64,000 bases of DNA from Utricularia gibba (lineage: Eukaryota; Streptophyta; Magnoliopsida; Lamiales; Lentibulariaceae). The position numbers were made by a program, and so were the translations under genes. Where the stretch lies: positions 1,116,001 through 1,180,000 of the forward strand of contig NEEC01000013.1 of the NCBI GenBank assembly GCA_002189035.1. The letters run 5' to 3'. Positions 1,221-60,700 of the stretch are shown in pieces. How positions within the stretch are numbered: the first letter of the stretch is position 1; every line of letters starts with the position of its first letter. The notes under the pieces were generated by a model. It ran no database searches. It worked only from the letters and a program-made list of their open reading frames with translations, and had not been told where the DNA came from.

Positions 1221-3175
1221 ATGTCTGGGGGTGGGGTAAATCGGCCGTTTAGTACTACTTCCAAGAACACTCTGCCGCCACAGGAGCTACTAGACGATCT
1301 TTGCAGGTCCTACCTAATTCATTGAGTCAAAATAATGTTGGATTAAATGCCCCATTTCACATAGTTAATGATTTTCAGCAGATTACAAGTTTTTTCTTCA
1401 TGGATTTGGTTCCACGGTTTTGATGAACACAAAATTTCGAAATGTTAGTTTTCTTCACTTTGTTGCCTTGTAGCAAATGCATTCTATGGTATATGATGCG
1501 ATTCTTTTAGTGTACTGCATGAATATTTTATATGTGCTTTTTCGTATATGATCCTTGGTTATGCCAACATATTCCTTTTTTTTTTTTTTTTTTGCAGCCG
1601 TTTTGTTCTGAATGTGCCAATGGAAGACAAACAGTCCTTTGAGAGAATCTTGTTCCTTGTTGAATATGCACATTGGTTTTATGAAGATAACTCTGTCGAA
1701 AAGGATCCATCATTGAAGTCATTAACGTTAAAAGAATTCACTTCTTTATGTATCCTCACTCTTGGTTGTTTTGTTCACAAGTCTATTCCCTTTTTCATTT
1801 GTACATTTGAGTTCGCCATATGTTTTCAATATTTATGTTCTCACTCACATAATATGATTTTCACGCGTTATTGTATGATATTTTTGTTCCCCTTAACATG
1901 TCAGTATTTAATAACTGTGATGTTTTAAAGCCATATGTCCCTCACATAGATGACATATTTAAGGACTTCACATCCTACAAGGTGCGGGTTCCCGTTACTG
2001 GAGCGATTATACTTGATGAAACATATGAAAGAGTGAGTTTCTGGGGCGACTGCTAGATTTTTCCAGAAAATATGTTAATCCTTTATGATGACATTATTGA
2101 AATCATTATTGAAATACTGAAACATTGTCGACAGTGCTTGCTCGTAAAGGGATGGAAAGGGACAAGTTGGAGCTTTCCTAGAGGGAAAAAGAACAAGGAT
2201 GAGGAGGATTACACTTGTGCCATTAGAGAAGTATAAATACTTTCATCTTGTGTTATGTTTGTGATTCTGTTCGCCAAACTTCTCATGAAGTACCTTGTTT
2301 TGCATCCATTGTTCTCTTTCAAGGAAAATAATAATTGCGTTATCCTGCCGTAGGTGTTGGAAGAAACAGGTTTTGATGTTTCCAAAATTCTTGATAAAGA
2401 TGATTACATTGAGATGATTTTTGGGCAGCAGAGAGTTAGATTGTACATCGTTGGTGGAGTGAAAGATGATACTTCTTTTGCCCCTCTTACTAAAAAGGAG
2501 ATAAGTGTGCGTAATTTTATTTTGAAGCAAAAGTGGCTTCTTTTCTACTATTCCAAGATATTTAGTACTTTCTTTGTGAATCTTGTCTTTGATGTCTTTA
2601 CTTGTTTTTTTCTCTATTGCTATTCTATAGGAAATTGCTTGGTTTCGGCTTGACGAGTTTCATCCTTCTAATGATCATGTCATATCTCGGGGGTCACTGG
2701 TCTCAAGCTTTATATGGTTGCTCCATTCTTGAGGTGAGTATATGACCTTCACGTTGTTTTCTATAGAAATGTAGTCAACGGTTGAAGGTTTTGAAGTGTT
2801 ATGTAGCTCTCTAAAAGTTTGGATTTCAACTCATTCTCCTCCGAGGGCAGCTAGGTCAGATAGACCTTCAAAAGGTATTCTCTTTTCTTCATGCTAATTC
2901 CAACGCAAATAACATTTATAGAAGTTGTATGATTGTTATCTGTCAACTACTATAAGCATTATCTTACAATTTGTATCTCACACGAAGGATTCACTGTTTG
3001 GAAGGCGAAAAGTGGTTCTGGGGATAGCAGCTTAAACATCATTGAGATCAACCAGTCATCTAAAACAGTGGCTGAAATAAATCTTGTTGACACAAGGCCT
3101 GGGAGGAGCTTCAGAAACTTCCATTTTGATAGGGATCCCATCTTGCAAGCTCTAGATAGTGCATTCTCTATTTAA
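1221..3175 (+). CDS. DCP2: mRNA-decapping enzyme DCP2 (Nudix hydrolase), with one apparent frameshift
   Basis: This is the catalytic subunit that removes the m7G cap of mRNAs in cytoplasmic processing bodies, working with DCP1 and VARICOSE. I resolve eight exons: 1221-1306, 1598-1749, 1905-2032, 2135-2230, 2354-2506, 2631-2733, 2807-2874 and 2988-3175. An N-terminal Box A domain spans about residues 20-115. The Nudix box starts near G139 and contains E145, R153-E154 and the metal-binding pair E157/E158 in REVLEETGF. The C-terminal part matches the short plant form, about 324 residues. The reading frame breaks inside exon 6 at the G run 2689-2693: the frame of ISRG runs into a stop, whereas [12 protein letters not shown] follows one base out. 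The spliced exons total 974 nt, one short of a multiple of three, so one lost G explains everything. Assembly error is more likely than a null allele. Confidence 0.92.
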
Positions 3176-5338
3176 ATGGGTAGATGAAGTGATTGAAAAC
3201 AATTTAGCTGTCACAGTTGCTCACATGATCTTTTGCAGGGTTGTATATTCTGTTGTGCTTGAAGAGATAGTTTAGATTTCAACACTTTTTGAAGTGATTC
3301 AATAAGATGGTTTCGATTAGGATAGAATGAGGATCAAACCCATTCAAATTTTTATGCCTAATTTCATGTTCATGCTAAAAGAAAAGAATTTAGTAACAAA
3401 GTTGAAGGTCACGGAAGATTTAGAAAATGAAATTGAAATAGAAGCCCTTTTCTTTTTGTCCATTGGTAGGCGCATCTCAGCGTACTTTCAATTTGACAAA
3501 GCATTGTTTTTTGTTTTAACGAAAAGAAGTGCCCGAAGGATCAAAAAGCAATGGAAGTTCTTTTGCCTTATTATGTGATTAGATAATTAAATGTGAGATA
3601 TTTAGATGTAGTTTTTGATTTTTCTTTGCAAATAAATGAAGTTAATTTGAGAAATGTTCATCTTTCTTTATTAAAATTTGTGAAATAGATGATGTTTTAA
3701 TTTTAATTTATAAAATAGATAAGGTTCGATATATTTATTATAATATATTTTAATTAAGTTCATAAAAATATTTTACTCTAATTTAAATTTTTAACGAGTT
3801 GATATATTTATTATACTATAGTTTTTGTAACGAATTTTGTGTTGTTTTATTTTATTAATCATGTAAGATTATGTAAATAAAAAATGGATCATTTATTACA
3901 ATGTAGAATTATGTGAATAAAAAAATTAAAATTAATAAATTGAGGTATTTTACAAATTATTCTAAACTAAAATAAATTAAAATAATATATACGATAAAAT
4001 ATGAAATGAGTCACATATAATGATAAAAAAATAAATATATATTTTTTACATTATTATTTATTCATAAAACATTAAATATGTTAACTATATCATTTTCAAA
4101 AATTCAAAACAAATAAAATCAAATATCATCTATTTTACACATAAAATTTAAAATATTGTCTATTTAACCAACCTTTTCCCAACCTCATCTATTTTGCAAA
4201 TATAAATATATAAGTACATTTACATACCCATCGGACCCGTTGAACATGAACCTAAATCTTGTGTTAAATTCCAACAGCTCCCATCAGATTGACATGCTGT
4301 TACGCTTTAAAGTTGGTGTTTGGATGGTACCTACATCTAAAAGAGACAACATGCGTTGTTGGGGTGTAGTAAAAATTGCATCTTTTGATGCCTTCTAAAC
4401 TTTTAAGATGGTGTTTAGTAATTGACTTAATATTTTGAGTACATGATTTAAGATAAAATGTATTTTATGGTTTTAGATTTAAAACATATTTGATAGATGG
4501 ATTTAGATATGTTATATTTTGTAATAAATATATTTTGAGTTGTGTTTTTAATTGATTAGTTTTATATTTATTTTGAAATAAAGAAGGAATAAAGTTATAT
4601 TGGGAATAAATATTTGATTTAATATAAAATATAGTATCTATTCAGTTTTCGATAAACCATTATATGCAGTTTTAATTTATTTTAAAATATTTTTAAACTA
4701 TACTTCAAAATCACCATTAAATTAAAACTTCCTATCAAAACACATATCTAAAATAAAATACACTTCAAAATTACTATTAAATCATCTACCAAACACCATC
4801 TAAACTCTTAATCCTAAACCATAAATTTTTAAAATTACATTATTAAAATTATCTATCAAGAGCATTCAAAGAGATAGGATGGTGAATGTTGAATGGGAGA
4901 GCAGCAGCCCGGGATGCTCAATGACTCCAGAAGCACAGACGGGAAAACAACCGGAACATTCATGGATACTTGAAATAATCGATTTGGGGCGGCGCGTTGG
5001 AGGAATCGAATACATGACAAGAATGCTAAGCTTCTGCCGATCAAGGATCAGGCAGCATGGGAAATGAAGAAGCAGTGCCCTGTTCGAATAAGATGACCAG
5101 AACGAACAGATCGTTATATTGCTTGCCGCCTCATAAACGCCCTTATCACAATGAACCAACCAAATGCTTTTTCAACAAAATTTACTGCAGAAACAGAAAC
5201 AGATCAACTAAGTTAGTCGAAAACTGTAACTTATTGCTGTACAAGGTGATCTGGAAAGGGAAATGTCGCACTTGTTTGCAAAACGAATAGGGTAGAACAT
5301 GTGCAAAGAACAAACTTCATTCATAATGCTCAGCAGCA
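3176..5338. other. AT-rich intergenic region
   Basis: The first 150 bases are probably DCP2 3' UTR. From about 3580 to 4850 the DNA is very AT-rich with many in-frame stops on both strands. I see no gene in it. It contains the MITE-like element described separately at 4406-4801. The last 450 bases before 5339 are of normal composition and probably include the 3' UTR of the minus-strand membrane protein gene. Confidence 0.6.
4406..4801. mobile_element. MITE-like element with imperfect terminal inverted repeats
   Basis: A 26-bp segment at 4406-4431 starting AGATGGTGTTT recurs in inverted orientation at 4776-4801. About 22 of the 26 positions agree by eye. The 396-bp interval between is AT-rich and non-coding. 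Size, base composition and terminal repeats fit a miniature inverted-repeat transposable element. I see no clean target-site duplication, so the superfamily is not assigned and the exact ends are uncertain. A related TTGGTGTTTGGATGGTA motif lies just outside at about 4313-4330. Confidence 0.5.
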
Positions 5339-5773
5339 TCAATCATATTTCTCCCTCCATGAGTACACCAGAAAAAATACCCAGGAAAGTCCTAGAACCA
5401 TATCCCCAAGCACAAGCCTCAGCCAATCATGGCCCAAGTCTTCAACCTTTCTCTCAAAGTAGATTCTCCAGATGGCCATTGTGATGTGAAGAACAACACA
5501 GCCTCTGGCAAAGAAGTTGTGAAAATCCTTGTCCTTCACAAAAGCCACCATGAACAAGAGAAAGCCAATTGCAAATAAAAGCAACCCGGAAAATGAATCA
5601 GATGTTTGAATCAACAGCTGATCATGAGGAGTTGAGCCCAAAAGCTTACTCGCATGATCTTTCCCATGGCTGAAAACAAGAATCTCATCTCTGCAGAACA
5701 TCAGGAGGGATCCACAGGTTACGGCGACGGCAGAGTGGAGAGTGCAGATCAAGAAAAAAACAGGGGAAGCCAT
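5339..5773 (-). CDS. Small four-helix plant membrane protein (DUF7865-type)
   Basis: This is an intronless 144-residue protein of unknown function, found across land plants. Four hydrophobic segments are visible, at about residues 4-25, 60-78, 86-106 and 120-139, with short hydrophilic loops. The C terminus ends in the conserved WREKYD. Motifs such as GSTPHD and QTSDSFSGLL are recognisable from plant relatives. The ATG at 5773 was chosen over an upstream in-frame codon at 5806 because MASPVFF is the usual family start and opens the first membrane helix. The first helix could also act as a signal anchor. The location (ER, plasma membrane or other) cannot be told from the sequence. Confidence 0.85.
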   Translation of the reverse strand: MASPVFFLICTLHSAVAVTCGSLLMFCRDEILVFSHGKDHASKLLGSTPHDQLLIQTSDSFSGLLLFAIGFLLFMVAFVKDKDFHNFFARGCVVLHITMAIWRIYFERKVEDLGHDWLRLVLGDMVLGLSWVFFLVYSWREKYD

Positions 5774-28399: not shown

Positions 28400-30735
28400 T
28401 TACTGGTGGACGAAAAGCATGCCTTTCGCAACCTCAAGTGCCTTCTTCCGTCCAAAAAACTTCTCCACAATTGCCAGGGCGTATTCCATAGTGGTTCCTG
28501 GTCCTCTGCTGGTTATGAGATTGCCATCCACAACAACGCGGTGATCAGCTTCACTGGCGTCTGAGAGCTTGTTGCACATAGCAGGAAAAGCAGTGGCCTT
28601 CTTTCCCTGTAGATAGGCGGTTAAGCATTTCATTGCAGGACCAAGTGTTCTATTTTTTTTGGTATACACAAACATGTACCTTCAGCAAACCGTGGGGCTC
28701 CAGGACCAAAGCTGGTGAAGCACAAATAGCCCCATAATACGCATTCGAGTCTCGTTGCTTCTTCAACAAATCTACTAGTTTGACAGAGTTTGCAAACGCT
28801 TGTGCACCACCAAGTCCACCCTGTGTTTTCCAAGAGGATTAATATCCTTGAGAAACAATTGCTGAGCTGTGGAAGAATTCTCTACTTACAGGTAAAACAA
28901 CGAGGTTATATGAACTTGTTAAGGCCTCATCTAAAAGAGCATCTGCCAAGAGTTTAACGTTCCTTGAAGCCAAAATTTCTAGTTTATCTTCAACAGATGC
29001 TACCACCACCTTTGCTTTTGCTCTACGGAGAACATCAATAATGATAACTGCTTCCATCTCTTCAGTTCCATTTGCAATAGGGACAAGAATCTGTCAGGAT
29101 GTAACATACAGACTATCATTAACGGCCCAACGAACATGCCTAGGCTATCATCGTCCCTGCTCCCAAGTTCGTAGATATGAATCGAGTGGCCCCATAATTT
29201 TACCCTCTACTTTGTTTTCTCAGTCCTTTCACAACAATAAGCATTAGGAGGGGAGACATCCATAAACCATTTCAATCAGGAACAAAGACAGCATTCACCA
29301 ATCGTTCAACACATCTCACCCGACGTGAAACATAACTTGGAGGAAAAAAGAAGCAGCTTTCTAGGTGTATAGAATTTGTAGTACCTGAGGTGAACCTGAA
29401 AAAGTCCAGTTGGAAGGATTCAGTTCCTTATGTGTGTACTCTTCACCATGATTTGACCGCAAAACCTAGATAGGGATGCAAATGAAAAAATGTCAACATC
29501 TTGCAATCCCAAGATCTTCATGCCTGAATAAATACCATAGGCGGCCTAAGCAGCAAGGTGATTAAACCAACGAAATCACTTTAAAAAGCGGGAAGAAGTC
29601 TGACTACATTCAGGACTATGATCATCAAGATTTAGATTCATTCAGAAACCCCTAACCAGCCACGGTGACAGACTATCTAGGCACAAATAGAATCAGAGGA
29701 GAGAAGAACGCAATACCAGAGGTCCAGCAACCTCATCTGCCTTTTCCTTTCCATACAACAGTTCAACCAAAGCAACAGAGTACTCCAGAGCTGTCCCAGG
29801 TCCACGACTTGTTACTACCTTCCCATCCTTCTGCACACGGGAGTCAGTCGCTGAAGCTGATGAAGACAATTGATCCATAAATGATGGATAACATGTTGCC
29901 TGTTTACAAGTCAGAGAGACCATCCTTACGTCCTAAACCTTTTTAGAAACTTATAAGCTGAACAAACCTAGGAACTAGCAACACTAGTTTATCCCACCTT
30001 CACGCCCTTCAGTAGACCCCAAGTGCCAAGGGCAACAGCAGGAGCAGCACATATCGCAGCATATAACCGGCCATCAGCAGCATGCCTTTTCACTAGTTGT
30101 TCCAGTACTTTGCAATCCCTAAGAGTGGCTGCACCAGGCATCCCCCCCTAGAGATCAGCATAAGAACCTGTAAATCGGACACGTACCAGACTTCCAGAAA
30201 ATCCAAATTCGAATACAATCATGTTAAACGCAACTCGTCGATTCCTAATTTTCAAGAACGCGATCAACGCAAAGCAGTAAAAATTTATACCGGGAGCGAA
30301 ATAAGGTCGAAATCAGTGCCGACGCAATCCGAAATCACAGCATCAGCAACAATTTTCACCCGTGGCAAGCCTCGATGATCAGATCCTTCTCCACCGAGGC
30401 CACCGTAACATCCGCTCCAGCTCTCCGCAGCAAATCCACCGTCACCACCGCTTCCAACGGCTCCGTTCCATCGGCCACCGGCACTAGAACCTAGGAAAGC
30501 ACGAAAACAACAACACCACAACATCACCGCATTTCACCATCAAAAAAAGGCAAGCCACCGAGTGTCTGAATCGGCATACCTTCTTCGCAGATGAAGCCAT
30601 GGCTGCAACAGTGAAGCGATTTCTGGCGCGAGAAGGGGAGAAGGCAGGAGAATATACAGTTTTTAGGGGCCGCGGTGCAAAATGAGAGAAATTCCGCGGC
30701 AGCGCATAGCGGAGGTGTAGGTGTACTGCCGCCAT
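28400..30735 (-). CDS. Tandem DJ-1/PfpI-domain protein (chloroplast DJ1B type), one apparent frameshift
   Basis: DJ-1 proteins are glutathione-independent glyoxalase/deglycase and redox-stress proteins; plant forms have two fused domains. Eight exons were traced: 30735-30580, 30490-30291, 30147-29998, 29899-29717, 29465-29385, 29090-28890, 28820-28680 and 28606-28400. The expected length is 439 residues. Residues 1-50 look like a plastid transit peptide. Domain 1 has its nucleophile Cys in AAICAAPA, domain 2 in GAICASPA; each opens with a [12 protein letters not shown]- or [12 protein letters not shown]-type strand. Exon 2 has a stop at the C run 30359-30361: CHG then TGA, while [12 protein letters not shown] continues one base out. 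Exon 2 is 200 nt where 201 is needed. One lost base in a homopolymer is the simplest cause. Confidence 0.92.
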
Positions 30736-32894: not shown

Positions 32895-33879
32895 CCTGCC
32901 CCCTGCAACTCTCTCCCTTCTCATTGTCCAAGTTCCAGCATACCCAATCAACCAGAGGCTAACCCCCTTCGAGTTGCACTTCATTCAACACCTTGACTGA
33001 TCAGAAGGCCTGAATTCTTTTATGTAGCAGCAGCAACACTTTGCTCAGCAATGTTAACTGTACTGTTGGAAAACCTATCTTGGTTTGTATTATTAAAATA
33101 TATTGTGATTTTTTTTATTATGAAAAAAAAATTTATTAGATGTTTTTTGATTTAATATTGTTAATGTTATGGGGTTTTATTTTTAAAATTGATTATATTC
33201 TTTTTTGCATTTTTGAAAATTTTCGAAAATAAAAATTCATCCAATAAAAGGGCATGGTCAAGGGGCTTTTTATTATGACAGTTTTATCCTTTCGCACTAC
33301 CCGACCCGCCCCGGCCACCACCAGTACCGGCATTTGTGTAAGTGGATCGGGCAAAATGGGTCATGTTATCGAGAGCCCTGAGGGAGGATCCAAACCCTAA
33401 CCCTTTTCGGCAGTCGGATCTCCGTTCGGATTTTTCACGGTTGTTTCCTCCACCGGTGAGAGTCCTTCATAGGTATCGACCATGTCATTTCTACTGAAAA
33501 GCGGTGTCTTAGTTAGATAGCAGCAGTGATTGTTTGGAAGTTTTGGGTTCTAACTTCTAAGCGGATTTTTTTTTTTTTTTTTTTGCGATTGCTGCCTCGA
33601 AAATCTGGCTGTTCGTACTGCTTCGTATTCGAATTTTGCTTCATTTCTTTGCAGCTAATGAAATATCAAATTTCATGTGTGCATCAAAAGAAAAGTAGTG
33701 GAAAATTGCAGCATATAGAAGCGACAGCATGTTGAAGCTTGAATATTTTCGTCTATTTTCAGTTATTACAGACAAAAGAAAGTTTTTTTGAGCTTATCCT
33801 TCTTATAATGGAGTAAATATTGAATGCAGTTTATCGTGTATAGATGCTGATAAGATAGCATTGGTGTTTATCCTCGGAC
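32895..33879. other. Intergenic region and leader of the hAT-derived gene
   Basis: The left 170 bases are probably 3' UTR of the galactosyltransferase. An AT-rich spacer follows to about 33280. From about 33350 the sequence becomes leader-like, with a possible 5' UTR donor (ACCGGTGAGAG at about 33451) and a T17 run at 33568-33584. No coding sequence is supported. Confidence 0.45.
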
Positions 33880-35850
33880 ATGGAAATGTTGCACGACAAT
33901 GCTGCCAAGAAGACAAAGAGGTTGACTTCCGTTGTGTGGAATCATTTTGAAAGAATAAAAAAAGCAGATGCACAGTATGCTGTTTGTCTCCATTGCAAAA
34001 AGAAACTAAGTGGATCTAGTAATAGCGGTACAACGCATCTAAGGAACCATTTGTTGAGGTGTTTAAAGAGATCGAATTACGATGTTTCTCAGATACTTTC
34101 TGCAAAGAGGAAGAGGAAGGATACTATCCAGGGGCATCTACCAGCCATCACTTATGGGGAGGGCAGAATGAAAGACGAAGTCCTCAGCCCAATTCCTCTT
34201 AGGTTTGATCAGGAGCATAGAAGAGAAGAATTTATCCAAGCTATGAATCTAGGAAGTCTTAAATTTGACCAAGGACGTAGTCGGGTGGATCTTGCTCGAA
34301 TGATCATGCTTCATGGCTACCCTCTCAGCATGGTTGATCATGTTGGATTCCAGATATTTGTCAAAAACCTTCAGCCCATGTTTGAGTTCAAAGACTGTGG
34401 TACTGTTGAAATGGATTGTTTGAGTATTTATGTGAATCAGAAACAGAAAGTATATGGGATCCTTGATCGCTTACATGGTAGAATTAACGTCTCTGTCAAC
34501 ATTTGGGGCGCTGCTTGTGGTTCTGATTTCATTTGTCTCGTGGCGAGTTACATTGATGAGGACTGGAAGCTACAGAAGAAAATGCTTAACTTTATAGCAG
34601 TGGATCTATCTAGCTGCGATGTACTTTCTGAAGTTATTATCAATAACTTGACAGACTGGGGCGTTGATGGTAAATTGCTTTCCATGACATTCGATGATTG
34701 TTCTGCCAATGAACTAGCAGTGTTAAAGATCAAGGATTTATTAGCTCAAAACAGGCATATGTTAAAGGATGTGGAGTTATTTGACATGCGCTGTGTCGCA
34801 CATCTTTTGAAGTCTATCGCCTTAGAAATTATGGAAGCTAGCGAGAAACTAATACATAAAATCCGTGATTCCATTAGGCATGTCAAGAGTTCTCGAGCAT
34901 TGCTCAGTAAGTTCAGAGATACTGCTGACCAAGTTGGAATAGACAGTAGTAAATGCCTAGTACATGACGTCCCAGCCCGATGGGACTCGACTTATGCAAT
35001 GCTTCAAGCAGCTATCGAGTACAAGGGCGCTTTCTCATTTTTGCAAGAAAATGATTCATCGTTCTCGAAAGGTCTATCAGAAAAAGAGTGGGAGCAAGTG
35101 AGTTTGGTTGCAGCTTGCATCAAGTTACTAGTGGATTCCACTACCATCCTAATTGAAAACAAGCATCCGACAGCCAACATATTTTTCTCAGAGATATGTG
35201 ATTTGCACTTGCGGTTAATGGAGTGGTCAAAAAGCCCTGACGAGTTCCTCAGTTGTATGGCCTTGAAGATGAAGTACAAGTTCGACGTTCACTGGAACAA
35301 ATGCAGGTTGGTTTTGGCAGTAGCAGCTGTGTTGGATCCACGTTTCAAGATGAAGCTGGTTGAGTACTACTTCCTGGAGGTTTATGGCGATGCAGCTCCT
35401 CAACACATTGAAGAAGTTTCTACTGGTCTGAGGGAACTGTTCAATGAATACTCAAGAGAAACCTCCTGCGACCATGATTCAGCTCTTGTGGAAGACGGCC
35501 CACGAGATAAACTCAAGGGCTTTGACAAGTTCTTATACGAAACTTCACAAAGTCACAGCACAACGTCTGATTTGGAAAAGTACTTAGAGGACCCTGTGTT
35601 TCCAAGAAACTCGGATTTCAGCATTTTAAACTGGTGGAAAGTGCATGCTCCGAGGTATCCTGTTTTGTCAATGCTGGCACACGACGTTCTTTCCATTCAT
35701 GTCTCAACGCTAGAGCCGGAGTTCGCTTTCAGCAAAACAGGCAGAGTGCTTGATCCCTGCTATACCTCTTTGAACCCAGATACCAGAGAAGCTTTGCTCT
35801 GTGGGCGAGATTGGCTGCAAATGGAACCCGAGTGTAGTAGTAATCTGTGA
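33880..35850 (+). CDS. BED zinc-finger protein derived from a hAT transposase (DAYSLEEPER/RICESLEEPER-like)
   Basis: This is a single-exon 656-residue protein. The BED finger spans about residues 15-70, with Cys pair CLHC, then TTHLRNHLLRC. The RNase H-like core follows. The second catalytic-site segment reads TFDDCSANE, and the Arg-Trp motif is PARWDSTY. The C-terminal hAT dimerisation region includes NWWKVHAPRYPVLSMLAHD and EPEFAFSKTGRVLD. The first catalytic Asp, expected in a TxDxW-type motif, is replaced: the sequence reads SVNIWG. The long intact frame with a lost catalytic residue and no obvious terminal repeats fits domestication rather than a live transposon. Relatives act as DNA-binding regulators needed for growth. 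A young element with a fresh mutation is the less likely alternative. Confidence 0.88.
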   Translation: MEMLHDNAAKKTKRLTSVVWNHFERIKKADAQYAVCLHCKKKLSGSSNSGTTHLRNHLLRCLKRSNYDVSQILSAKRKRKDTIQGHLPAITYGEGRMKDEVLSPIPLRFDQEHRREEFIQAMNLGSLKFDQGRSRVDLARMIMLHGYPLSMVDHVGFQIFVKNLQPMFEFKDCGTVEMDCLSIYVNQKQKVYGILDRLHGRINVSVNIWGAACGSDFICLVASYIDEDWKLQKKMLNFIAVDLSSCDVLSEVIINNLTDWGVDGKLLSMTFDDCSANELAVLKIKDLLAQNRHMLKDVELFDMRCVAHLLKSIALEIMEASEKLIHKIRDSIRHVKSSRALLSKFRDTADQVGIDSSKCLVHDVPARWDSTYAMLQAAIEYKGAFSFLQENDSSFSKGLSEKEWEQVSLVAACIKLLVDSTTILIENKHPTANIFFSEICDLHLRLMEWSKSPDEFLSCMALKMKYKFDVHWNKCRLVLAVAAVLDPRFKMKLVEYYFLEVYGDAAPQHIEEVSTGLRELFNEYSRETSCDHDSALVEDGPRDKLKGFDKFLYETSQSHSTTSDLEKYLEDPVFPRNSDFSILNWWKVHAPRYPVLSMLAHDVLSIHVSTLEPEFAFSKTGRVLDPCYTSLNPDTREALLCGRDWLQMEPECSSNL

Positions 35851-38286: not shown

Positions 38287-38299
38287 AATTTTTCAGTGT

Positions 38300-38874: not shown

Positions 38875-38939
38875 GTGTGAGTTTGTAGCCTCCAGTTCCG
38901 TTGCTCGGCAGTGCACCCTCCCTCTTCAAAGTCAGACGC

Positions 38940-41884: not shown

Positions 41885-42429
41885 TGTGATGTAACCTGTC
41901 ACAGTATTTGTTTTTGCTACTGGTTGTTCTTAGGGAGTAGCCCAAGTGTTTGTTTAGTTCACACTTGCTTTCTCTGTTGCAATTCAAAACTTCTTGAGGT
42001 GAATGAAGTTATCATTACGCAGCAGATATTATATCCCTTTCATACATCCAAATTCCAAAGTCTTAAAAATGGTGCTCAAATCATATGATCCATGACTATG
42101 TTTGGAAGGGTTTTGGTGTGAGAATGCAGATATTATGTAAAGGACAAACCGCAGCTGGCTTGACATAAGTTCATCCACATCTGTTGACAAACTTTTCTCT
42201 ATTATATTGTTCTTGTATGAGTTGGCTGAGTTTCTCCAGCTCGAATGATGAAAAAGGTTGAAGGATCTCAATTGAGTAATGAATAAAGATGCCATGCTGG
42301 ATACATGGGCTGCTGGCTTATAAACGTCAAGGCATAACAAACAAAGCCTGTCTTAATCCTTTCCGTTCATTTCTTCTGTTACTTTGTTCTTCCTGGTTTT
42401 TCTCTGCGGTTTGCATCCACAGATTTCAG
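41885..42429. other. Spacer between PHD gene and receptor-kinase remnant
   Basis: The first 150-200 bases are probably the PHD gene 3' UTR. No coding sequence is supported in the rest. Confidence 0.45.
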
Positions 42430-43749
42430 ATGGGAGTTCCTCAGAATCTTCCCTTCTATGTGGCTGTTTCTGTTGTGGCATTTGTCATCTCCAAGATAAT
42501 CATCGGATTCCTTTGCTACCGCCGCTGGAAGCGCAAGCAGGCGGTCATTCATGACAGCTTCACCGGTAACTACCTTCATTTGAATGCACCCACCCTGTTT
42601 CTTAATGACATGGGAATGCTTCAATCTTTAAGGTGGGAAACTGGTGATGTTCGAGTCAGTAAGAACCAAGAACTTGAGAAAGGAGTTATTGAACAAGGCA
42701 ATGAAGCTAAGCAACAAGGACTTCATCGGAGCAGGTGGACAAGGCACTGTGTACAAGCTTGAGATAAATCGAGAAATATCGTTTGCTGTGAAGAAGCTGA
42801 ACAAACTTGGCTCTGGGCAAGATCGGGGATTCGAGAGAGAGCTTGAAGCTACATTGCAGCATCACTCTGCAATCTCCTCGTTTACGAGCTCATGCCCAAC
42901 GGAAGCCTCGAATCCTTCCTCCACGGTAGATATACACCTCGATCTTAGGTTAAACCACTGTTTTTTGATGCCTTTCCCCATGTGGGTTCAAAGATGGGAT
43001 TGTGAGTTGGATGCAGGGAAGTGTAAGAAGAAGACGGTGCTGAATTGGGATTCAAGATACAGGATAGTAGTGGGAGCAGCAAGAGGAATACGTTACCTTC
43101 ACCATCATTGTATTCCTCATATAATTCACAGAGACATCAAGTCCAGCAACATTCCTCTCGATCACAACCTGGAAGCTCGTGTTTCTGATTTCGGGCTGGC
43201 AACTTTGATGGAACCTGACAGAACCCATGTCACCACTCAAGTCATCGGGACTTTCGGTTACTTACACGGGTCGCTTACACTTTTTCGCAGGTGTCAGTTT
43301 GAGATGTGGCGCAGGGTATATAGACACTGGAAAAGCGTCATCTAAGTTTACAGCTACGGAGTTGTGCTGCTAGAGCTTCTAACGGGGAAAAGACCGTCCG
43401 ATCAAACGTTCATCGAAGAGGGTTCCAACCTGTGACATGGGTACTGTATGAAGTTGAACTGCTTTTACTGTGTTATCCTCCGCGCTTATCTGGATAAACA
43501 ACAAGCGCAATGTCTACTGTTCCCCAGCAGGTGAAATCTGTTGTGTAAGAGGAGGAAGAAAGAGTGGTCGATGAGAACTTGGTGGATGGCTCCACACCAG
43601 AAATCCAGCAAGTTTTTGGCATCGCAGCGTTGTGCCTGGAGGTGGAGCCATCCAACAGACCCACCATGCCCCAGGTCATCAAAATGTTGGAGGAAATAAG
43701 GCACAATGGACAGTCCGATGTATTAAGTCAAAAATTAACATTGATTTGA
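42430..43749 (+). pseudogene. Decayed receptor-like kinase (membrane anchor plus kinase domain)
   Basis: The remnant keeps the order of a receptor-like kinase without large ectodomain. An ATG at 42430 opens a membrane helix (VAVSVVAFVISKIIIGFLCY). A plausible intron (42566-42632) then joins it to a kinase start with GAGGQGTVYKL and FAVKKL. A deletion of about 20 codons near 42860-42873 removes the segment between alpha-C and the hinge. The hinge resumes in another frame (LLVYELMPNGSLESFLHG). After intron 42926-43016 the catalytic loop HRDIKSSN and SDFGLATLMEPD are present. The APE region after GTFGYL is scrambled near 43265-43310. GVVLLELLTGKRPSD continues in another frame, with a stop at about 43432-43436. 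A further in-frame TAA precedes VVDENLVDGSTPE near 43547. Several independent lesions mean a true pseudogene, even allowing for assembly errors. Confidence 0.85.
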
Positions 43750-44832: not shown

Positions 44833-46648
44833 TCAAGAAGTGACATCAATGGCTGCATCTGCTTTCCCTTCTGCGCCCGAGACTTCAGCTTCACCAGTCT
44901 TTTTCATTTGGGTGCGCGAGAGTCGCGTTTTTCCAGATCCATTTGATGCAGGGGAGCCATTTTGAGCCCTGCTCTTTGAGCCAAGGGGAGAAAGGGCTTG
45001 TCCTGCTCCTCTGGTTGCACCAGTGCTGTGCCTGGACCCAACTACTCTTCCCAGAGGAGATGGCATCTTGGTTGCAGCATCACCGCAGCTCTTCCTGCGA
45101 CTGAAGTTTGGCGACTTCGCACGAGTCACTGGTATCTGCAGACCCCAAACCACAGCAGAGCAAGTAAGGTTCTGCTTTCCCTTGTAGGTGCAGAAGCAGC
45201 TTTTTTTTTTTCATGTGCACCAGGTGAATCCATGACTATGTCATTTCCCATACAAGATGAACTTAAAACTAAAGGATCATTGGAGTGCTTCACCTCCAGA
45301 GCTTGCTTTATCTACATCATTTTATGGATTACCTTCTTCAGCTCAGCTTTTGGGGAGGTCCTTCACGATAGAAACTGGGAACTGGATTTGCCTTGTAGCT
45401 CATGTTCTTTCTCAGCAACTTTAGAGCTGCTTGGTCTTCTTCCTGTTGATTTAGGGAACAAACATGAACATGATCAGGTTTTACGGTATTCCCAGAGAGA
45501 AAGATGTACAAAAAAATTTGCCTAGCCTTGATTCTAGCTTCGTAATCATGCTTCTCCTTCTCCAAGGCTTTGTGTTTCTCCTCAAGCTTAGAGTAAAACT
45601 GGTTATGGAGATGGCATAAGATAAGTATCATAAAATAATAAGAAAAAGGGTAACAAAGAATCTGTTCATCAAGAAGATGTACTTCCTTGCGCCTCTGCAG
45701 ACGATCAGAACAGGTAAACCTTGGGGCAACTGGCACAGTAACTTTGGTAGTGCGTACAGAAGAGGCGCTACTAAATAACTAAGGAACAAACAAACCATTT
45801 TCAAAAGCATAAGAAATGTCAAACAAGTTGGGGACAGCTAAAGAATGAAGAGAACATCAAAAAGAAGAATGCAGAGTTGGGATACGCGGAAAACAAAGAC
45901 CAATTGTCATCTTCATCATAGTGGCTTCTGGTAATAAGATATTGTTGTTTCCTCTCCACAGTGTGCGCGTTTGGCTGGATATAAACCCAGTCAACATAAA
46001 AACCAAAATCAGAAACTTTAAACAACAGAAGCCAATCACTAAATCTGGGATTTGCACATGCAAATCACCAGGAAACATCACAAGAATGAAACCATTATGA
46101 GGACTATTTTTCCTACCAAATTTCTTTCATGTTTGTTACAAGACATGGGCAATCAGACCAGAATTCAGAAAACAAGGGAAAGGCATAAAATTCTGACTTG
46201 CACATGTAAATCAGGAAACATCAAAACAATGAAACCACCATGAGGAATACTTTTTCCTCCTGATGGACCATAACTCTGGCACACAAGGCAAAGATTCGGT
46301 TATTGCGAAAAGAAACACACAAACCACCATTTTTTTATCTGGTTCGGGAGAACGTGCAGGAGAATTCCTGTTAATCATTTGATTGATTGCAGATCCTGAG
46401 GCAATTTTAACAGGCGAGCTCAACTTCAACCCATTCAAGTTCTGCACCTCCGCCTCAATTATTTTTTCCTCTGGCTCATGGCCTACAATATTTCCTTCCA
46501 GAGCTTGTTGCTTCATTTCGGTAGTCATCCCGTTTGCAACGTGATTCAAGTTTTTCTCTGAATTTTCCGGCGAGCCTTGATCACTACCTTGGGTGATGAC
46601 TACATTAGACTCCTGATCAATGCACGACCCAGAAACATCTCGCCCCAT
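44833..46648 (-). CDS. WVD2-like microtubule-associated protein (TPX2 domain), one apparent frameshift
   Basis: WVD2/WDL proteins bind and bundle cortical microtubules and influence anisotropic growth. Six exons were traced: 46648-46328, 45974-45901, 45770-45683, 45598-45527, 45442-45333 and 45135-44833. The expected length is 322 residues. The N-terminal third is acidic and variable. The TPX2 core spans about 130-220, with RLQRRKEFYSKLEEKHKALE, EARIK and LLRKNMSYKANPVPSFYREGPP. The C terminus is basic, Ser-rich and low-complexity (TRAKSPNFSRRKSCGDA). In exon 5 the frame hits a stop after GPPQKLS. Adding one C to the run at 45352-45355 gives PPPKAELKK and rejoins exon 6. Intron 45526-45443 appears to have a GC donor and reads through in frame. 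Exon 2's donor (gtcttt) is weak, so that boundary is less sure. Confidence 0.85.
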
Positions 46649-48353
46649 TAGTCTGCAAGGACAATGAGTTTAAAATGTGATAATCAGAACTACGTGAAAA
46701 ACAAGTGACAAATTGAGATGATTAGATCAGCTCAATTCCACTTGATGTGAAAACACAGAATACAGCCACCAGAAAACCAAGTATACGTACCAAGGAGTTT
46801 AAAATGTACCTCAAAATCTTAAAATGACAGCAAACCCCCAGCATTGTTTCAAATCCAGAGCCAACACAGAAAATTCACAGCCCTCACAAGCAAAAACAAG
46901 AACCTCCATGACGAAAACCCTTAAAGAGCGAACCTTTCAAAACCCCAGCCCTCACATTCCCATTCACAAACCGCAAACAAATCAATGCACTAAAAATTCA
47001 GGAAAACCAAACGATGAGCCCATCAGAAAAGCGTCCACTACACCCAGAAATTAAAACAAAAAAACAAAAAAAAAACAGCCGAGCAAGAGACTCAAAGGCC
47101 TCATTCTCGAGTGTAGTACAAGAAAAAAGATACCCCGCTTCCTAATCCTTGTCTCCGATCTAGGCGACAGGGATACCCAAGCAATCTTCACCGCCAAAAG
47201 AGCAATGTAACGAAACGCGTCAGCACACCCGCACTCCCTCACCGGCTCCCTCTCATATGAACGGCATTATCATCCTCGTTCCAGAACGACTCGCCGGGTC
47301 ACTCCAAAAGGTGTGAGGTTTTGCACACCGGAAGTGCCTACTGTTGACGGTGTCTTCTGATTTACACCTGCGAATGCCATTTCATTTATTTTCACATAAT
47401 TCAGACCAATCGCATTAATTGTGTCCCCTTTTGTACAAATAAAATATTAAATAATTAGCTTATATAAATAATATTTACTCTCCAAATTAACTATATTCCC
47501 TATACATTGTTATTCTTATTTTTATTAGTGAAATAAAAAAGTGTAGTTTGATAGCGGTACTCCAAGTTATAATTATTATAATTTTTTTTTGTAAACAATT
47601 TGCTTTAGAATTTATAAAATTGCATATAAACTTTTATGTTTGAATCTTTATTGTATTGTTTTGATAATTATTTAGATATTTGTTGTATATTTAACCAATA
47701 ATGTTTGTAGTATCATTGTATATTTAATTTCTTGTGTTTGATTCATTTTTTAAAAATTTTGAAAACTATTTGAGTTTTCGTTGTACATTTTTTATATCTT
47801 GAGATGATTTTTTATAATTTTGAAATTTTGCGGCTAAATTCTTTATATTGACTAAAATTTAATGTGTTATTATTGAAATATTTTTGAAATAAAAATAAAT
47901 AGTTATAATATATTAATATAAAATAAAATATTTTACTCATTACTTTTCATGCTCATTGTAATAAGTTTTTTTAAAAAAATTATTTTTTCTTTTTTATTTC
48001 AATTATTTTTTTTAAACTGATTTCCTAATTTTTCATTTCTATTATTATGAAAAATTAAAGTTAAAATCTATTATGGGAATGGATCCTATATTTCAGACAT
48101 CAACGCGGGCGCACGCGTGAACTAATTGGTTCGAATTGATGTCCGTAAGTTGAAAAAGGCTTCTGTTTCGGACATCCATCCATTGCTTTCGTCTTCGTCG
48201 TCGTCGTCTTCTTCTTCCGTACACTGATTCCCTGCCCCTGGTCTCTGTATATATAAATGAGGGAGCTGGTTTTCTCGGGAACGCAAGGCCTCGAATATCT
48301 TGTACCATTTTCTATTTGATTTTTAGTGGCCAGGAGCGAGACACGAACTCACA
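46649..48353. other. Divergent intergenic region WVD2-like / ALBA
   Basis: The left 600 bases probably contain the WVD2-like leader, possibly with a leader intron. From about 47390 to 48090 the DNA is AT-rich and shows no gene. The ALBA TATA box is at 48248-48258. A short (GTC)n/(TTC)n tract sits at about 48190-48216. Confidence 0.5.
48248..48258 (+). promoter_or_regulatory. TATA box of ALBA gene
   Basis: TATATATAAAT lies 106 bases upstream of the ALBA start codon, followed by GC-richer leader sequence. Position and match are both good. Confidence 0.65.
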
Positions 48354-50580: not shown

Positions 50581-51425
50581 ATGGATTCCGATGGGATGGT
50601 GCCCGGCCCGTCGTTGCCGCGCTCGGAATCCAACCGCACGCTCTTCGACATCATCCGTGAGGAACGCGGCGGATCGAAAGAGAGCAAGAAGACCTGGAAG
50701 AGCTTCAAGAGCAAGCTCCACCGTAAGAGCAGCGGAGGACGCGGCTCCACGTGGACATCCACCGTATCAGTTCCGACCTCCGACATTCCTCTCAATAGCA
50801 ACAGTACCAATCGAAGCATGACACGCCAACCATCCACTCTAACCGGATCCGATCCAACGGATCAGCCCGACATCCACGCCGTGCCGGAGGCCGCACCCAG
50901 TTTAGCCCGAAGGCCGACCCTTGCAAGGGAGAGCCGTAGCGGCAGGTTCGATCTTCAACTAGGTATAATGAATTGAGTACTTTTACATTCCTTGCATTCC
51001 GAGCGAATCATCTTAATTTGATTAAACAGGAACGAACCCGTCGAGGCGATTCGAGAGGGAAACCGATTTTGACGACGACGAAGACGATGAAGATGTGGAC
51101 GGAGCCACGGGCGAGGAGGGAGGAGAAGGCGGCGGGGAAACGGAGGAACGGCCGGTGAGAATGTCGCTGATGTCTCTGTTAGCTGAGACGGACGACGAGG
51201 GAATGTTTCCGTACGGGATGGACGAGGAGGAAGAAGAGGAGGAAGAGGAGGAGGAGCAGGGCGGGAGTACTACAATTGCTGCGTTTGTATGGTCAGGCAC
51301 AAGGGCACGGCGTTCGTGCCGTGTGGCCACTCTTTCTGCCGATTGTGCTCCCGGGAGCTCTGCGTGCAAGGAGGAAACTGCCCCTCTGCAAAAATTACAT
51401 CTTGGAAATTCTTGACATCTTCTGA
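50581..51425 (+). CDS. C-terminal RING finger protein, two apparent frameshifts
   Basis: This is a candidate E3 ubiquitin ligase, expected length 259 residues, from exons 50581-50962 and 51030-51425. The N terminus has PRSESNRTLFDIIREE and a Lys-rich KTWKSFKSKLHRK segment known from plant relatives. The middle is disordered and Ser/Thr-rich. An acidic stretch ends in an 11-residue Glu run at about 204-214. The C-terminal RING needs two frame corrections. After GGC the run 51263-51265 must gain a G to give EYYNCCVCMVRHKG, FVPCGHSFCRLCSREL. The run 51381-51384 must gain a C to give NCPLCKNYILEILDIF and the stop at 51423-51425. As given, the last two zinc ligands are lost. Both sites are C or G runs, so base-calling error is likely. 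Confidence 0.85.
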
Positions 51426-52159: not shown

Positions 52160-52211
52160 ATCTCCAATGAACTCCAACTTTCAATGCTCATTTGCAGCGT
52201 GGCAATGCACA

Positions 52212-52219
52212 TATTTATA
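52212..52219 (-). promoter_or_regulatory. TATA box of Dof gene
   Basis: Minus-strand TATAAATA, about 52 bases upstream of the Dof start codon. The position implies a very short leader. Confidence 0.6.
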
Positions 52220-54948: not shown

Positions 54949-57509
54949 ATGCCTTCACTCATCTTCTTTCTACTCTTTTTTTGCCTTTCTCCGGCCGCCG
55001 CCAACTTCACATCCGCGGCGGAGTGCCTGCGGGTTTGTGGGGAAACCCGGGTTTCGTACCCTTTTGGGTTCTCGGATGGGTGCGAGATCAGGTTGAATTG
55101 CACCGCCGATGGTGGGGTTAGAATCGGGCAATTCAGGGTTCAGAATGTGACTGGTGAACAGATACTGGTCAGTTTGCCTGCGAAATGCGACCGCCCAGTA
55201 ATGGATTTGGCTTCTCTTTTTGGGGATAACTTTGCGCCTACATGGAGAAACGCCCTACTTTTTGAGAACTGCAGCCAGCAGCTGTTGCACGATTGCTCCA
55301 TTCCCACATTATTGCTCAAGTCGAAGATCGGGGGTAGTGACTGTGTCCACAATGTGAGTTGCTATTCGGTTGGGACCGCAGACGACTTCACTTTGTTCAT
55401 GAACTTTGAAAAAGTGAGAAGAAAAGCGAATTGCAGTGTTCTTGTATCGTCGGTTATGGTGGATGTGGACCTGAGACAAAACGCAACCACCGGAAGCAGA
55501 TCATCCATCGCGCTTGATTTTCAATTTGTGGATCTGGGGTGTGGGTTCGAGGGGCGTGTGATTGCGACCCCAATGCTGACTGTACGCTGGCTCACAATGC
55601 CCCACCTGGATTTCGATGTAACTGCAACGATGGCTTCGTCGGAGATGGCTTCTCCAAGGGACAAGGCTGCCGGAGAGGTTAGATCATCCATATTGCAGCC
55701 ATTGTTCCTTGACATATTCCAGATTGCTCTGTAAACTGTATGTGGATTGGGTTTAGTCCAAATTCTTGACTTTAGGAGTAGGGGTTGAACTCAACCGCAG
55801 AAAAGTTGAAGCTTCAACCGGAGGTTTGTTACACCATCCTCCTTCTCTGCAATGGGACAAACATTAGATCGTAATGAGCTGTAGACTTATTTTGGGATTT
55901 TTGTGCATGTTCTAGCTAGGATATCTGGGGGCTCTAATGTGTTTGTTTGATTTCTTTCAGAAATATTGGGTGATTACTGAAGTTTTCAATCACTACTAGA
56001 CTTCTCTTTGAGATACAGCTAAAAATTTGCTTTTTGGTGAAGTTCTTGCATCAGTACCTGATCATGGCTCTCGAGATCCAAGGCACCCGCTACTCTCTGG
56101 TCGACATTTGGGGAGTAAACTAGACCCCCTTGTTGGTGGTGAGTGCTTCCTTAGCTGGTCTAGGCACACCTTCTTGATGCAATTGGGTGTTCTTGGTGTA
56201 AATCATGCTTGTGTTTCTGCTTTCAGGGATAGTTGTCGGAGCTTTACTGATGGCAGCAACGACAACCATCGCCTACTGCATGAAGAAACGGTCTGCAACT
56301 CTCAAGAGCAGATTGAGTGCAAGGCGATTGATCAGTGAAGCTGCAGGGGAGACCATTGTGCCCTTGTATCTCTACAGAGACATAGAGAGAGCAACAAACA
56401 GCTTTTCCGAGAGTCGTCGAATAGGAACTGGCGCTTATGGAACAGTTTTTGCTGGAAAACTGCTGAATGGTGAATGGCTGGCGATCAAGAGGCTAAAGCA
56501 CCGGGACAAGGACAGCTCTGAGCAAGTGAAGAATGAGATCAAGCTTCTGTCATCTGTTAGCCATCCAAATCTGGTTCGGCTCCTGGGCTGCTGTATCGAG
56601 AATGGGGAACACATTCTTGTCTATGAGTACATGCCGAATGGTACTCTTGCTCAGCATCTACAGAGAGAAAGGGGATCTATTCTTCCATGGACAGCTCGCC
56701 TAACCATTGCTGCAGAAACAGCACATGCCATAGCCTACCTTCACTCCTCAGTGAGCCCTCCTATATACCACAGAGATATCAAGTCCAGCAACATTCTCTT
56801 GGACTACAACTTCAACTCCAAACTAGCTGATTTCGGGCTCTCCAGACATGTAATCACAGATGATTCTCATGTCTCCACAGCTCCTCAGGGGACCCCGGGC
56901 TATGTTGATCCTCAGTACCACCAGAACTACCACCTTTCAGACAAGAGCGATGTTTATAGCTTTGGGGTTGTGCTGGTGGAGATCATAACATCCATGAAAG
57001 CAGTTGATTTCAACAGACCCCATGGGGATGTAATCTTGGCTTCCTTGGCAGTGGAGAGGATTGGGAAAGGGGCCATTGATGAGATCATCGATCCGTTTAT
57101 TGAACCAGACAGGGATGCCTGGACACTGTCGTCGGTTCACAAAGTCGCCGAGCTGGCTTTCCGGTGTCTCTCTTTTCACCGAGACATGCGGCCGGCGATG
57201 AAGGAAGTGGCGGAGGAGCTGGAGCAGATCAAGCTCAGCGGCTGGGTGTCGTTCGAGGATGGTGTGCGGATGACATCATCAAGATTTTCTTCTTGTTCGT
57301 CCCTTCTCCATGAGAGCGATGACGCGTCATTACGCAAATCGTCGAGCAGGAAGGTTGCGACGCACGACAGCCGGAGGTTGGCCGTACCGGCGGTGCTGGC
57401 GGAGGAGAACACGGATTGCTCCCCTATGTCGGTGCAGGACTCCTGGCCGAGCCAAGGCAGCTCCCCTTCAACCACCAGCTTACTAAGTGCTCTGCAATCA
57501 AACAAATGA
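54949..57509 (+). CDS. Wall-associated receptor kinase-like 14 (WAKL14) type, one apparent frameshift
   Basis: This is a plasma-membrane receptor-like kinase, expected length 698 residues, from exons 54949-55677, 56055-56138 and 56227-57509. A signal peptide (about 1-19) precedes a GUB_WAK pectin-binding-type domain (CLRVCGETRVSYPFGFSDGC). An EGF-like Cys cluster follows, then a membrane helix (IVVGALLMAATTTIAYC). The kinase has GTGAYGTVF, AIKRLKHRD, HRDIKSSN, LADFGLSR and GTPGYVDPQYHQ, and is complete. The second exon is unusually degenerate relative to what I expect but keeps both splice phases. Exon 1 breaks near 55536-55545: after VDLG the frame becomes unrelated, and one added G restores WWVRGACDCDPNADC and the EGF Cys pattern. 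The restored exon then joins exon 2 in phase. Binding of cell-wall fragments is inferred from the family. Confidence 0.88.
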
Positions 57510-57712
57510 GCTGTTTGTGGTTAATTTTTTGATATTTATAGCAATAATTATCAATATTTTATTGTTTATTTTAACTATTTATTAATTAAATTATTTGTTC
57601 TGAAAAAAACCCTAATCTTTGTTAAAACCCTGTGTGACCTGGAACCGGTGTCTTTTCTCTTCTCATGGCGGGGTTTTAGTTCAGTTTCGGTACATTCTTC
57701 TGCGGCAAGGTC

Positions 57713-60700
57713 ATGGTGCTCCCCCATGTTTCACCCAGGCGCTTCGTCGCTTCCAAGGATTTATGTCGTTATGTTTTATGGAAAGTTCAAGGTGTGGCAG
57801 GTTTTTCGGCGATGCCGGCGGCAGATGACTCATCTCGGCAATCTAATCCTTCTGAGAAACCCTCTTCACTTTCCGCTAGGTTGAGTTTCATTTTTGATCA
57901 AATTGATGAAATCGATAAAAAGAGAGAAGAAAAAGACCAAACGCTGCAGCGAATTCGCGCTTGGCGTGAATCAAGGAAACAAACGGAGAGTCAGAGTGAA
58001 CCTGTCACGAGAACGGTAGGGTCCGATTCAACGGAGGAATTGAAGCCAGTAGTGGTAAAAACTGGAACTTTTTTGGAGAATGGAGACGGAAAGAAAGAGG
58101 TTGAGTTAGTTCATCCATGGCCAGAGTGGATTGAGCTGATGGAGAGGCTTGTGCAGCAGAATTACTTTGATCACAGGAGAAGGGATGAGGATGGTATGAT
58201 CGAAAGCCTGGGCTTTAGTGCTCCTGACGTTGCAGTGAAGGTGGATAAGGAGTTTGATTTTTCTCGGGACTATAAGACCGTTCAGACTGCCATGGTGAAT
58301 TTTGGTCGTGATCGCTTCGATATTTTGAGGTATGTTTTCATTTTACATGAACGTGTTTTTACGTGTTTCTGCACTGAGGAACACTTGGGAGAAGTCTGCT
58401 AGTTGAAGAAACTTGGTTTTTTGTATCCCCATGATAGTTTTTGCAGCATTTTGGCCCAAAGGTTTTAGGTGCTCTTTTGAAGATTCGATCTTGTGACGTG
58501 TATGGAGAAATGTGACATTTTTTTGTGCTGTGGGTTTTGCTAGTTTTACTGCATTGTAATTGGTATACAAATATTTGTAGGGCCTTGCCCAGGCATGATC
58601 TTCAATTGTTGGTCGGCTATGGTTGCCCCAGTACCGATAAGAGGGCTGTCTACTCAGGAAAATTGTTGAGGAAGTACACGCATCTGGATGAAGGGGATGT
58701 AAGCTTTTGCGTTGTACATAATATATTTGTGGCTTGTGTATTGTGAAAAGATCATAAAATAAAATTGTTGAGGAAGTACACGCATCTGGATGAAGGAGAT
58801 GTAAGCTTTTGTGCTGTACGCAGTATTTGTGGCTTGTGTATTGTGAAGAGATCATGAAATAACTATGTTAACTCATATCAGTTTGTAATCTGTCCTTTAT
58901 AGGATTTCTTATATCATCAATAAATATTTTCTTATTGATGTTTATCGTTCGTCCTTGGGATTAAAGTAACCTGATTTTTAATTTTATGCCTCAGGTTTGT
59001 AGCTCCTGCAGTTTGCGGGGTTCTTGTGAGAAAGCATATCTGCTAACAAATAAAGAGGATGAAGCACGGACAATTGATGTCATGCGTATCCTGCTTTCTT
59101 ATGGTTTTGATCCAAAGGGTGAATTTGTATCAAATAAGGACTTACTAAAAATGAAGCCAGTGAAGGCTATTGTCAGGAAATTGCTTCATCAAGTGGTCAA
59201 GTTAAGTGCAGTTCCCATAGATCCAACTCTATCCCCTCCTGTTGTTAAAAAGCCGCCACCAAAGGTTAAGCAACCTCCTCCTACTCCAAAGAAAAGGATT
59301 GGGCGCTATGATGTTGAAATGAAAAAGGGGACTGGCTCTGCACAAAGTAATTTTCTATTTGGTCTATTGAAATGCCTTTTTGATTTTTTTTTTTCCAGAA
59401 TTTCTCATGCTTTAGCTAGAAATACTCATGCCCGTTAATTTTAATTTTCCATGCATGAATGCGATTTCATTCATTTGTATCCATTCTATGCTTCATTACT
59501 AATCAAGTAGCATGCTGTGCGGCAGTGCCATTTTAGCGTTATTCCTTTTGAGAATCATACCTCCCATCTTAGTGGGGAAGATCGGGTGGTCATCATTCTT
59601 TCTCTATGATCAAGCAACTGTATTCCTTTTCAGTATGGATGCTTATCATTATTAGTTCATTTTTCCAGAATATATATTCCTTCTTCTATGTTGCATGAGC
59701 TCTGCTATTGTTTTTGAACAATGCCTTATATTCCTCAGGTGTGACTTCTTGAATTTCGCAAAAAATACAAATTGTCTGCAGTGTGAAGCGAAGCGTCCTA
59801 AGAGGCAACTCCTTCCAGGGGAATGGGAATGCCCACAGTATGCTATTACCCTCCTTCGTCCACTTTTTTTTTTTTATTTGTGTGGCATTTTGCTAGGTTA
59901 CTTTCTTCATTGAATCAACTTTTTTTTTTTACTGGTTAAACCACTTTCGATTTTTCCACTTTAAAATTTAACCAGGTAGAAGCTACATCAAAAGTCAAAA
60001 GTTCATGCGCATGACATTACTGATACATATATCTCTGTCGCTGTCGTGCTAAGTGGGCTTCCAACTTTCTACAGGTGTAATTTCCTAAATTACAGGAGGA
60101 ACACCGTATGTTTTCATTGTGAACATAAGCGCCCAGCTGACTCATATATTGATCAGTATCCAGAGAAACCAGGTGCTCCAGGAACCAGGACAGACAAGAT
60201 TCTTGATCGAGCAGCTGTTTCCAATGCATGGAATTTTGATTTTGATGATGATGAGTCTGATGGAGCCGATGTTGCTGCATTTGAGTATGCTGATTCTCAG
60301 AGAATGAATGAGGATTTCCCCTCACCCAGCCTACTAATGGAGTTCCCAGAGGACACGACCGTGGCTCGGATAAGATGTCCAGGGACCGTGGTAACTCTGA
60401 ACCAGTGAGATTTGGGATGGGATTCAATGATTTTGATGAAGACGATGATGATGATGTCGACAGCTATGAGCTGGTTGGGCCAAATGAGGCGCCCAGGACA
60501 CCTCGAGTAAAATTTTCTGATATTGAAGATGAATCAGAATCCGAAGATGACTCAGTGGGCATCAATGAAGGTGGCCATGGCAAGGATAAATTCCCTGGCC
60601 GTGGACGGAGGACTCGTGGCCAAGGACGGAGAGATTCTGAAGGTGATGATCTTGACTTCGGCACTGATGATGACCTTCCCATGCACCCAAACTGGAAATC

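Follow-up and report, generated by a model that had tools for sequence, protein, structure and literature searches.

Single-base frame breaks in G/C stretches of six Utricularia gibba genes as probable errors of assembly consensus

Introduction

When several genes of one region each lose their reading frame by a single base, does the loss belong to the plant or to the assembly? The question is raised by a window of 64,000 nucleotides (nt), the whole stretch of DNA analyzed here, from contig NEEC01000013.1 of Utricularia gibba (assembly of 100,091,633 bases in 516 contigs). A sequence-only reading had described eight single-base frame breaks of one sense in six of its genes (DCP2-like, DJ-1, WVD2-like, RING-finger, WAKL14-like and VAR3-like zinc-finger), each as the loss of a base from a G/C run. 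On the sequence evidence presented below, the eight breaks would be assembly errors and not mutations of the plant, at a probability of about 95%. The kind of artefact is already known and the value of the result is practical, for annotation; no report of G/C-run base loss for U. gibba was found in a literature search limited by licence.

Frame breaks in the window

The bases at all eight coordinates match the earlier description and, when the three frames are read, eight of eight sites change frame in the same sense, with one base too few, so that bases and readings agree on eight breaks in six genes. Exons were joined at GT-AG introns for five of the genes, the WVD2-like gene being judged from its same-genome paralogs instead. 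As assembled, the spliced lengths are 974 (DCP2), 1184 (DJ-1), 778 (RING), 2096 (WAKL14-like) and 2398 (zinc-finger gene), and the spliced reading of all five meets a premature stop; the addition of 1, 1, 2, 1 and 2 bases, in the same gene order, gives 975, 1185, 780, 2097 and 2400, each divisible by three. The earlier statement that the exon sums become divisible by three only after such additions thus holds in the five genes assembled. An aligner was written for the analysis, in which a profile of relatives (27 for the WAKL14-like gene, 22 for DJ-1 and 17 for the VAR3-like gene) chooses freely among introns, gains and losses, a GT-AG intron of at least 60 bases being priced the same as a one-base change. 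This intron-aware alignment recovers four of the eight sites (two in the VAR3-like gene and one each in WAKL14-like and DJ-1), all of them as losses, and it finds neither a gain nor an in-frame stop in these three genes. The other four sites are backed by a relative of solved structure (DCP2), a Pfam domain (RING) and intact paralogs (WVD2-like).

The DCP2-like mRNA decapping enzyme gene (1221..3175, + strand, 8 exons), recognized from its exon sum, Pfam and the S. pombe Dcp2 structures, carries site 1 (GGGGG, 2689..2693, +), one base too short, past which the frame must shift for the catalytic region to continue into its C-terminal part. Chains of S. pombe Dcp2 can be aligned across this site at query residues 226-248 (E 1e-62), and the Pfam domains Box A (PF05026) and NUDIX are found in the as-assembled and restored readings alike. 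The two-domain DJ-1 gene (28400..30600, - strand, 8 exons) carries site 2 (CCC on the + strand, GGG in the gene; 30359..30361), where one base is wanting and the alignment puts the loss at 30358. Allowing the missing base lifts its Pfam score from 31.8 bits to 295 bits, and among the matches listed it aligns over its full length with DJ-1 proteins of Lamiales at up to 83% identity. A run of seven G (7 C on the + strand) at the acceptor of DJ-1 exon 3, about 30141-30147 on the - strand, has exactly the length that the frame requires, so that shortening does not affect every long G/C run.

The WVD2-like, TPX2-domain gene (approximate span 44833..46669, - strand) was identified by PF06886 and its same-genome paralogs. 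Its site 3 (GGGG on the + strand, CCCC in the gene; 45352..45355) has one base fewer than three paralogs (L112, L113 and L114), which are in frame and carry the longer form inside an uninterrupted exon. The closest of them, L112, reads CCT CCT GCA AAA at the site, and its CCTGCA suggests that what is missing may be a G flanked by Cs. The RING-finger (C3HC4) gene (50581..51425, + strand), assembled from two exons, holds site 4 (GGG, 51263..51265, +) and site 5 (CCCC, 51381..51384, +), each found one base too short by frame reading and exon joining; there is no Pfam match as assembled, and PF13920 passes its cut-off of 27 with 28.4 bits once the two bases are allowed together.

In the WAKL14-like receptor kinase gene (54949..57509, + strand; exons 54949-55677, 56055-56138 and 56227-57509), site 6 is GGGGTGTGGG (55536..55545, +), one base too short, with the loss placed by the alignment at 55540. 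The relatives carry LGWW (LGWWV) at this point, from which the lost base is most simply a G of GGTGG. The 84-base exon (56055-56138) was added by alignment to the relatives and appears by eye weakly conserved; the spliced length is 2012 without it and 2096 with it. Lastly, the VAR3-like RanBP2-type zinc-finger gene (57713..61286, + strand, 5 exons; matched over 100% by a Paulownia protein at 59% identity) bears two breaks: site 7 (GGGG, 59327..59330, +; loss aligned at 59322), beyond which the zinc finger continues only in the shifted frame, and site 8 (CCCC, 60318..60321, +; loss aligned at 60325), which has the least conserved neighbourhood of all; at each, one base is lacking. The RanBP2 zinc fingers give a Pfam match with the missing bases allowed and are absent from the as-assembled pieces. 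As a separate observation on this gene, an exon end with its donor (~45 bases) is repeated ~100 bases downstream in the intron (window 58660-58806), a partial exon duplication.

Allowing the base did not improve the Pfam scores of TPX2 (44.9 to 40.5 bits), NUDIX (59.6 to 58.1) or Box A (103.9 to 103.0), because in those genes the break is located at the end of the domain or past it. A base too few within a G/C stretch is thus shown at every site, the shortening of a run itself not at every one. The claim of a base lost from a G/C run therefore stands for the context and is narrowed for the run, given the simplest solution for the WAKL14-like gene and the possible G among Cs in the WVD2-like gene.

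Could the sites be unrecognized splice junctions or small introns, with nothing broken at all? Introns were indeed misread as frameshifts by an intron-blind alignment in three loci of the GRAS family. However, one-base losses were preferred at four sites though introns were equally priced, the WVD2-like paralogs are one base longer within an uninterrupted exon, and the DCP2 and RING breaks fall inside conserved stretches; this explanation can be given almost no weight.

Between 15 and 18 or so further genes of the window were inspected visually in the list of open reading frames (ORFs), and there may be further breaks among them.

One-sided breaks across the genome

A survey outside the window covered 100 loci of three families chosen by the authors, GRAS, KCS (fatty-acid elongases) and BAHD acyltransferases, with 125,943 aligned coding bases. 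By the authors' grouping, 40 of 45 GRAS, 33 of 33 KCS and 27 of 29 BAHD loci were taken in. Four GRAS loci that have one open match each (C316:31414, C213:1223211, C413:5006936 and C1:4829522) and one fragment (C177) were omitted, which makes the broken share of GRAS slightly too high. An intron-blind alignment was tried and dropped, having produced false shifts at introns in the GRAS loci L013, L017 and L020 and false stops in L026, all resolved by the intron-aware version. KCS matches, some of them fragmentary, were also seen to form a cluster of ~52 kb (G000:C413:4946600-4998300; L057-L061, L067, L071, L079 and L081).

The survey yielded 39 calls of -1 and four of +2, which have the same net sense, that is, 43 net losses. 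The net gain sense has four calls, one +1 and three -2, each -2 being readable as two losses. In-frame stops numbered three, against 47 shifts. Single-base changes introduced by simulation were detected with equal sensitivity (losses 116/120, gains 117/120), and the one-sidedness is thus not a bias of the method. Breaks occur in 34 of the 100 loci (GRAS 16/40, KCS 8/33, BAHD 10/27) on many contigs, at a rate of ~3.7e-4 (47 per 125,943 coding bases); at ~3.7 per 10,000 coding bases, several breaks are expected in a gene-dense window of 64 kb. The window is not special within the genome, about a third of the sampled gene copies showing similar breaks. What had been described as a window-wide pattern thus holds for the eight sites and extends well past the window, the lost base not always coming from a long run.

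The context of the losses was compared with that of 150 simulated random deletions, for which the interval of possible positions was computed likewise. The 43 losses gave 41 distinct intervals, since two of them lay within the interval already given by an adjacent event and added none of their own. A G/C run of at least four lies in 22 of 41 loss intervals and in 16 of 150 simulated ones (p = 2e-8), and a run of at least six in 8/41 and 0/150 respectively, the median interval length being 14 for events and 11 for the null set, a small bias in favour of run enrichment. A/T runs of at least four show no excess (3/41 loss intervals versus 14/150 simulated, p = 1). In coding orientation, the base of the runs of at least four is C in 13 cases, G in eight and tied in one. 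On the assumption that the longest G/C run in an interval is the one affected, the estimated loss rate rises with true run length, from 0.0001 at length 2 to 0.003 (3), 0.021 (4), 0.094 (5), 0.13 (6) and 0.67 (8/12) at length 7. Additionally, a single profile column holds the breaks of three GRAS paralogs (L010, L011 and L014), all of which have 5 or 6 C in a row next to the break.

Conservation beyond the breaks and real decay

The losses may alternatively be taken as real, the six genes, together with one in three of the loci surveyed, being recent pseudogenes, perhaps through a bias such as oxidative damage of guanine. The shorter runs are, after all, what the assembled sequence shows, and real deletions also favour homopolymers. 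The sampled families may moreover include real pseudogenes, as the three in-frame stops suggest. However, real decay would be expected to bring nonsense changes, gains and larger insertions or deletions (indels), where 43 net losses, four net gains and three stops were observed. Nor is conservation lower downstream of single breaks: in 23 single-break loci the mean profile score is 0.94 downstream and 0.79 upstream, and it is 1.00 in break-free loci (n = 66). Relaxed constraint beyond the lesion, which would mark a pseudogene, was therefore not seen, the tail past site 8 being the exception, and the mixture of disabling changes, nonsense included, that such a gene would show was not seen either, the three aligned window genes having no in-frame stop and the survey three stops to 47 shifts. 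Real mutation would also need repeated hits to break three GRAS paralogs at one column.

Also against real mutation, no second full DCP2 match was found in the genome, where elsewhere only a partial match of 33 residues occurs, and DJ-1 exons 1-2, searched as DNA, match a single place, in a search that would miss a diverged copy. In Arabidopsis, dcp2 null mutants are reported to be post-embryonic lethal (PMC9338796), and the same lethality is described for decapping mutants generally (PMC10226599).

Decay of another appearance is present in the same genome. A psaA insert on a mitochondrial contig (L124, G000:C515:69801-74900) is decayed, with in-frame stops and mixed lesions, psaB there being open (744-codon frame). 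Broken frames are common to such true pseudogenes and the genes studied here, but L124 is located outside the plastid and shows in-frame stops and substitutions among mixed lesions. As to its history in the analysis, psaA had been tried as a plastid control and was dropped once C515 proved to be mitochondrial (COX1 present; 267,500 bases) and its psaA a plastid-derived insert in real decay. Elsewhere, psaA has no listed match on other contigs save a short piece on C375, and rbcL is open on C516. Taken together, real mutation is considered very unlikely as the source of the eight breaks.

A further possibility is that the shorter DNA is real and that the products are rescued at the G/C runs, through slippage during transcription, editing of the RNA or frameshifting on the ribosome. 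Homopolymers are places where slippage can occur, and the persistence of conservation beyond single breaks would fit such a rescue. However, dozens of unrelated genes would require it, including some with G/C runs no longer than 1-3 bases, and the listed relatives of the WAKL14-like, DJ-1 and VAR3-like genes are full-length proteins. No conserved shift site is apparent in relatives, those of these three genes being read in one frame and the WVD2-like paralogs being in frame, and rescue appears extremely improbable. Its combination with an extreme loss of bases from G/C runs (for example by oxidative damage), corrected at the level of transcripts or ribosomes, has next to no chance of being right. 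Among the 120 matches listed per search for the same three genes, in a protein collection with plants and transcript contigs, no same-species protein of at least 90% identity was present; the top identities were 73% over part of the query (WAKL14-like), 83% (DJ-1) and 64% (VAR3-like).

Consensus error as the best explanation

The breaks behave as consensus errors would: the length changes by a single base, the changes concentrate in G/C runs at a rate that rises with run length, and they spread independently of gene function. The following course is proposed. Noisy PacBio reads would have been the source of the assembly and the only data used to polish it; the consensus step, presumably the Quiver consensus caller, would count too few bases in some G/C runs, or now and then miss a G or C adjacent to one, so that one base is dropped; and such a drop within an exon would break the frame and give a shortened gene model. 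The assembly is probably the PacBio one of U. gibba, for which a review gives construction with HGAP, 88x coverage and a contig N50 of 3.4 Mb (PMC5793159), and reads or transcripts probably carry the missing bases. Consensus error accounts for the one-sided sense, the G/C context, the spread over contigs, the scarcity of nonsense, the conserved downstream sequence and the fact that DCP2 is affected, and the earlier attribution of the pattern to long-read consensus is in this respect supported.

A comparable case is Streptomyces albus SM254, whose genome, assembled from P6-C4 chemistry with HGAP and Quiver to above quality value 50 (QV50), is reported to have retained 205 indels; almost all of these fell within homopolymers of G or C, and Illumina data served to correct them (PMC4832174). 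As in that PacBio continuous long read (CLR)/Quiver assembly, single-base length errors lie mostly in G/C runs and survive same-read polishing. Residual run-length errors are likewise described for long-read-only assemblies in general (PMC8812927), with the difference that here only G/C runs are involved.

Several observations weigh against consensus error and have to be set beside it. Some concern the comparison with published assemblies. Per base, the rate here is more than ten times that of S. albus SM254 (205 in 7.17 Mb), and the loss sense measured here has no counterpart in the cited account, which in the part relied on leaves the sense of its indels unstated (PMC4832174). The genome size of U. 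gibba is given as 82 Mb in the review (PMC5793159), against 100.09 Mb here. Raw PacBio reads are reported to contain 8% insertions and ~3% deletions, with the homopolymers of all four bases over-represented (PMC7671305); as the raw reads are rich in insertions, the bias toward loss would have to arise when they are merged, that is, in the consensus.

Other observations come from the sequence. That no inserted base needs to be removed, as the sequence-only reading had it, held at eight of eight sites in the window, and one clear insertion was met outside it, in a KCS gene that also carries a loss (L074, G000:C4:3823300-3825800). Both G/C runs of length 8 in the survey are intact (0/2 lost), and seven of 41 loss intervals contain no G/C run of at least three. 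The acidic tail past site 8 has a conservation of 0.58, against 1.34 and 1.71 in earlier parts of the VAR3-like gene. Compared with a second-order Markov model (20 simulations), the window has slightly fewer G/C runs than expected at length 5 (28 against 35.5) and 6 (6 against 7.4) and more than expected at length 4 (199 against 159.7), a spectrum not used as proof. Finally, the argument from DCP2 is softened on two counts: the as-assembled gene retains Box A and most of NUDIX and is thus not certainly null, and loss of RDR6 is reported to rescue dcp2 lethality in Arabidopsis (PMC9338796).

Consequences for annotation

If this is the public reference of U. gibba, about a third of the sampled gene copies carry a false frame break in it, and claims of gene loss, pseudogenes or protein length would need a check with short reads or transcripts; RNA-seq data have already been mapped by others to the PacBio map (PMC10663240). 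The survey suggests a rule, namely to distrust any frame break that amounts to one missing base and adjoins a G/C run of at least four. Not every claim of gene loss is affected, however, as the published N-terminal loss of DCL3 illustrates, for which the authors report support from RNA sequencing (RNA-seq) and 5' rapid amplification of cDNA ends (5' RACE) (PMC8333044). In agreement with it, one of four Dicer-like loci (L050, G000:C213:2756501-2764500) is matched twice by RNase III but not by the Dicer dimer domain, and no helicase-like frame was seen by eye in the 8 kb around it.

Further observations

Four contigs (C1, C505, C507 and C515) end at round numbers (8,500,000, 3,452,500, 642,500 and 267,500, respectively), as though truncated in the version used for the searches. 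Within the window, positions 42283-43345 (+ strand) hold a receptor-like kinase remnant in two overlapping frames, from which, by eye, a stretch after the ELEA motif seems to be missing; by the features of the receptor-like kinase family, it looks like a real decayed pseudogene, unlike the one-base breaks. Positions 33859-35850 (+ strand) contain an uninterrupted 663-codon frame that resembles, by eye, a hAT-type (BED zinc finger) transposase-derived protein.

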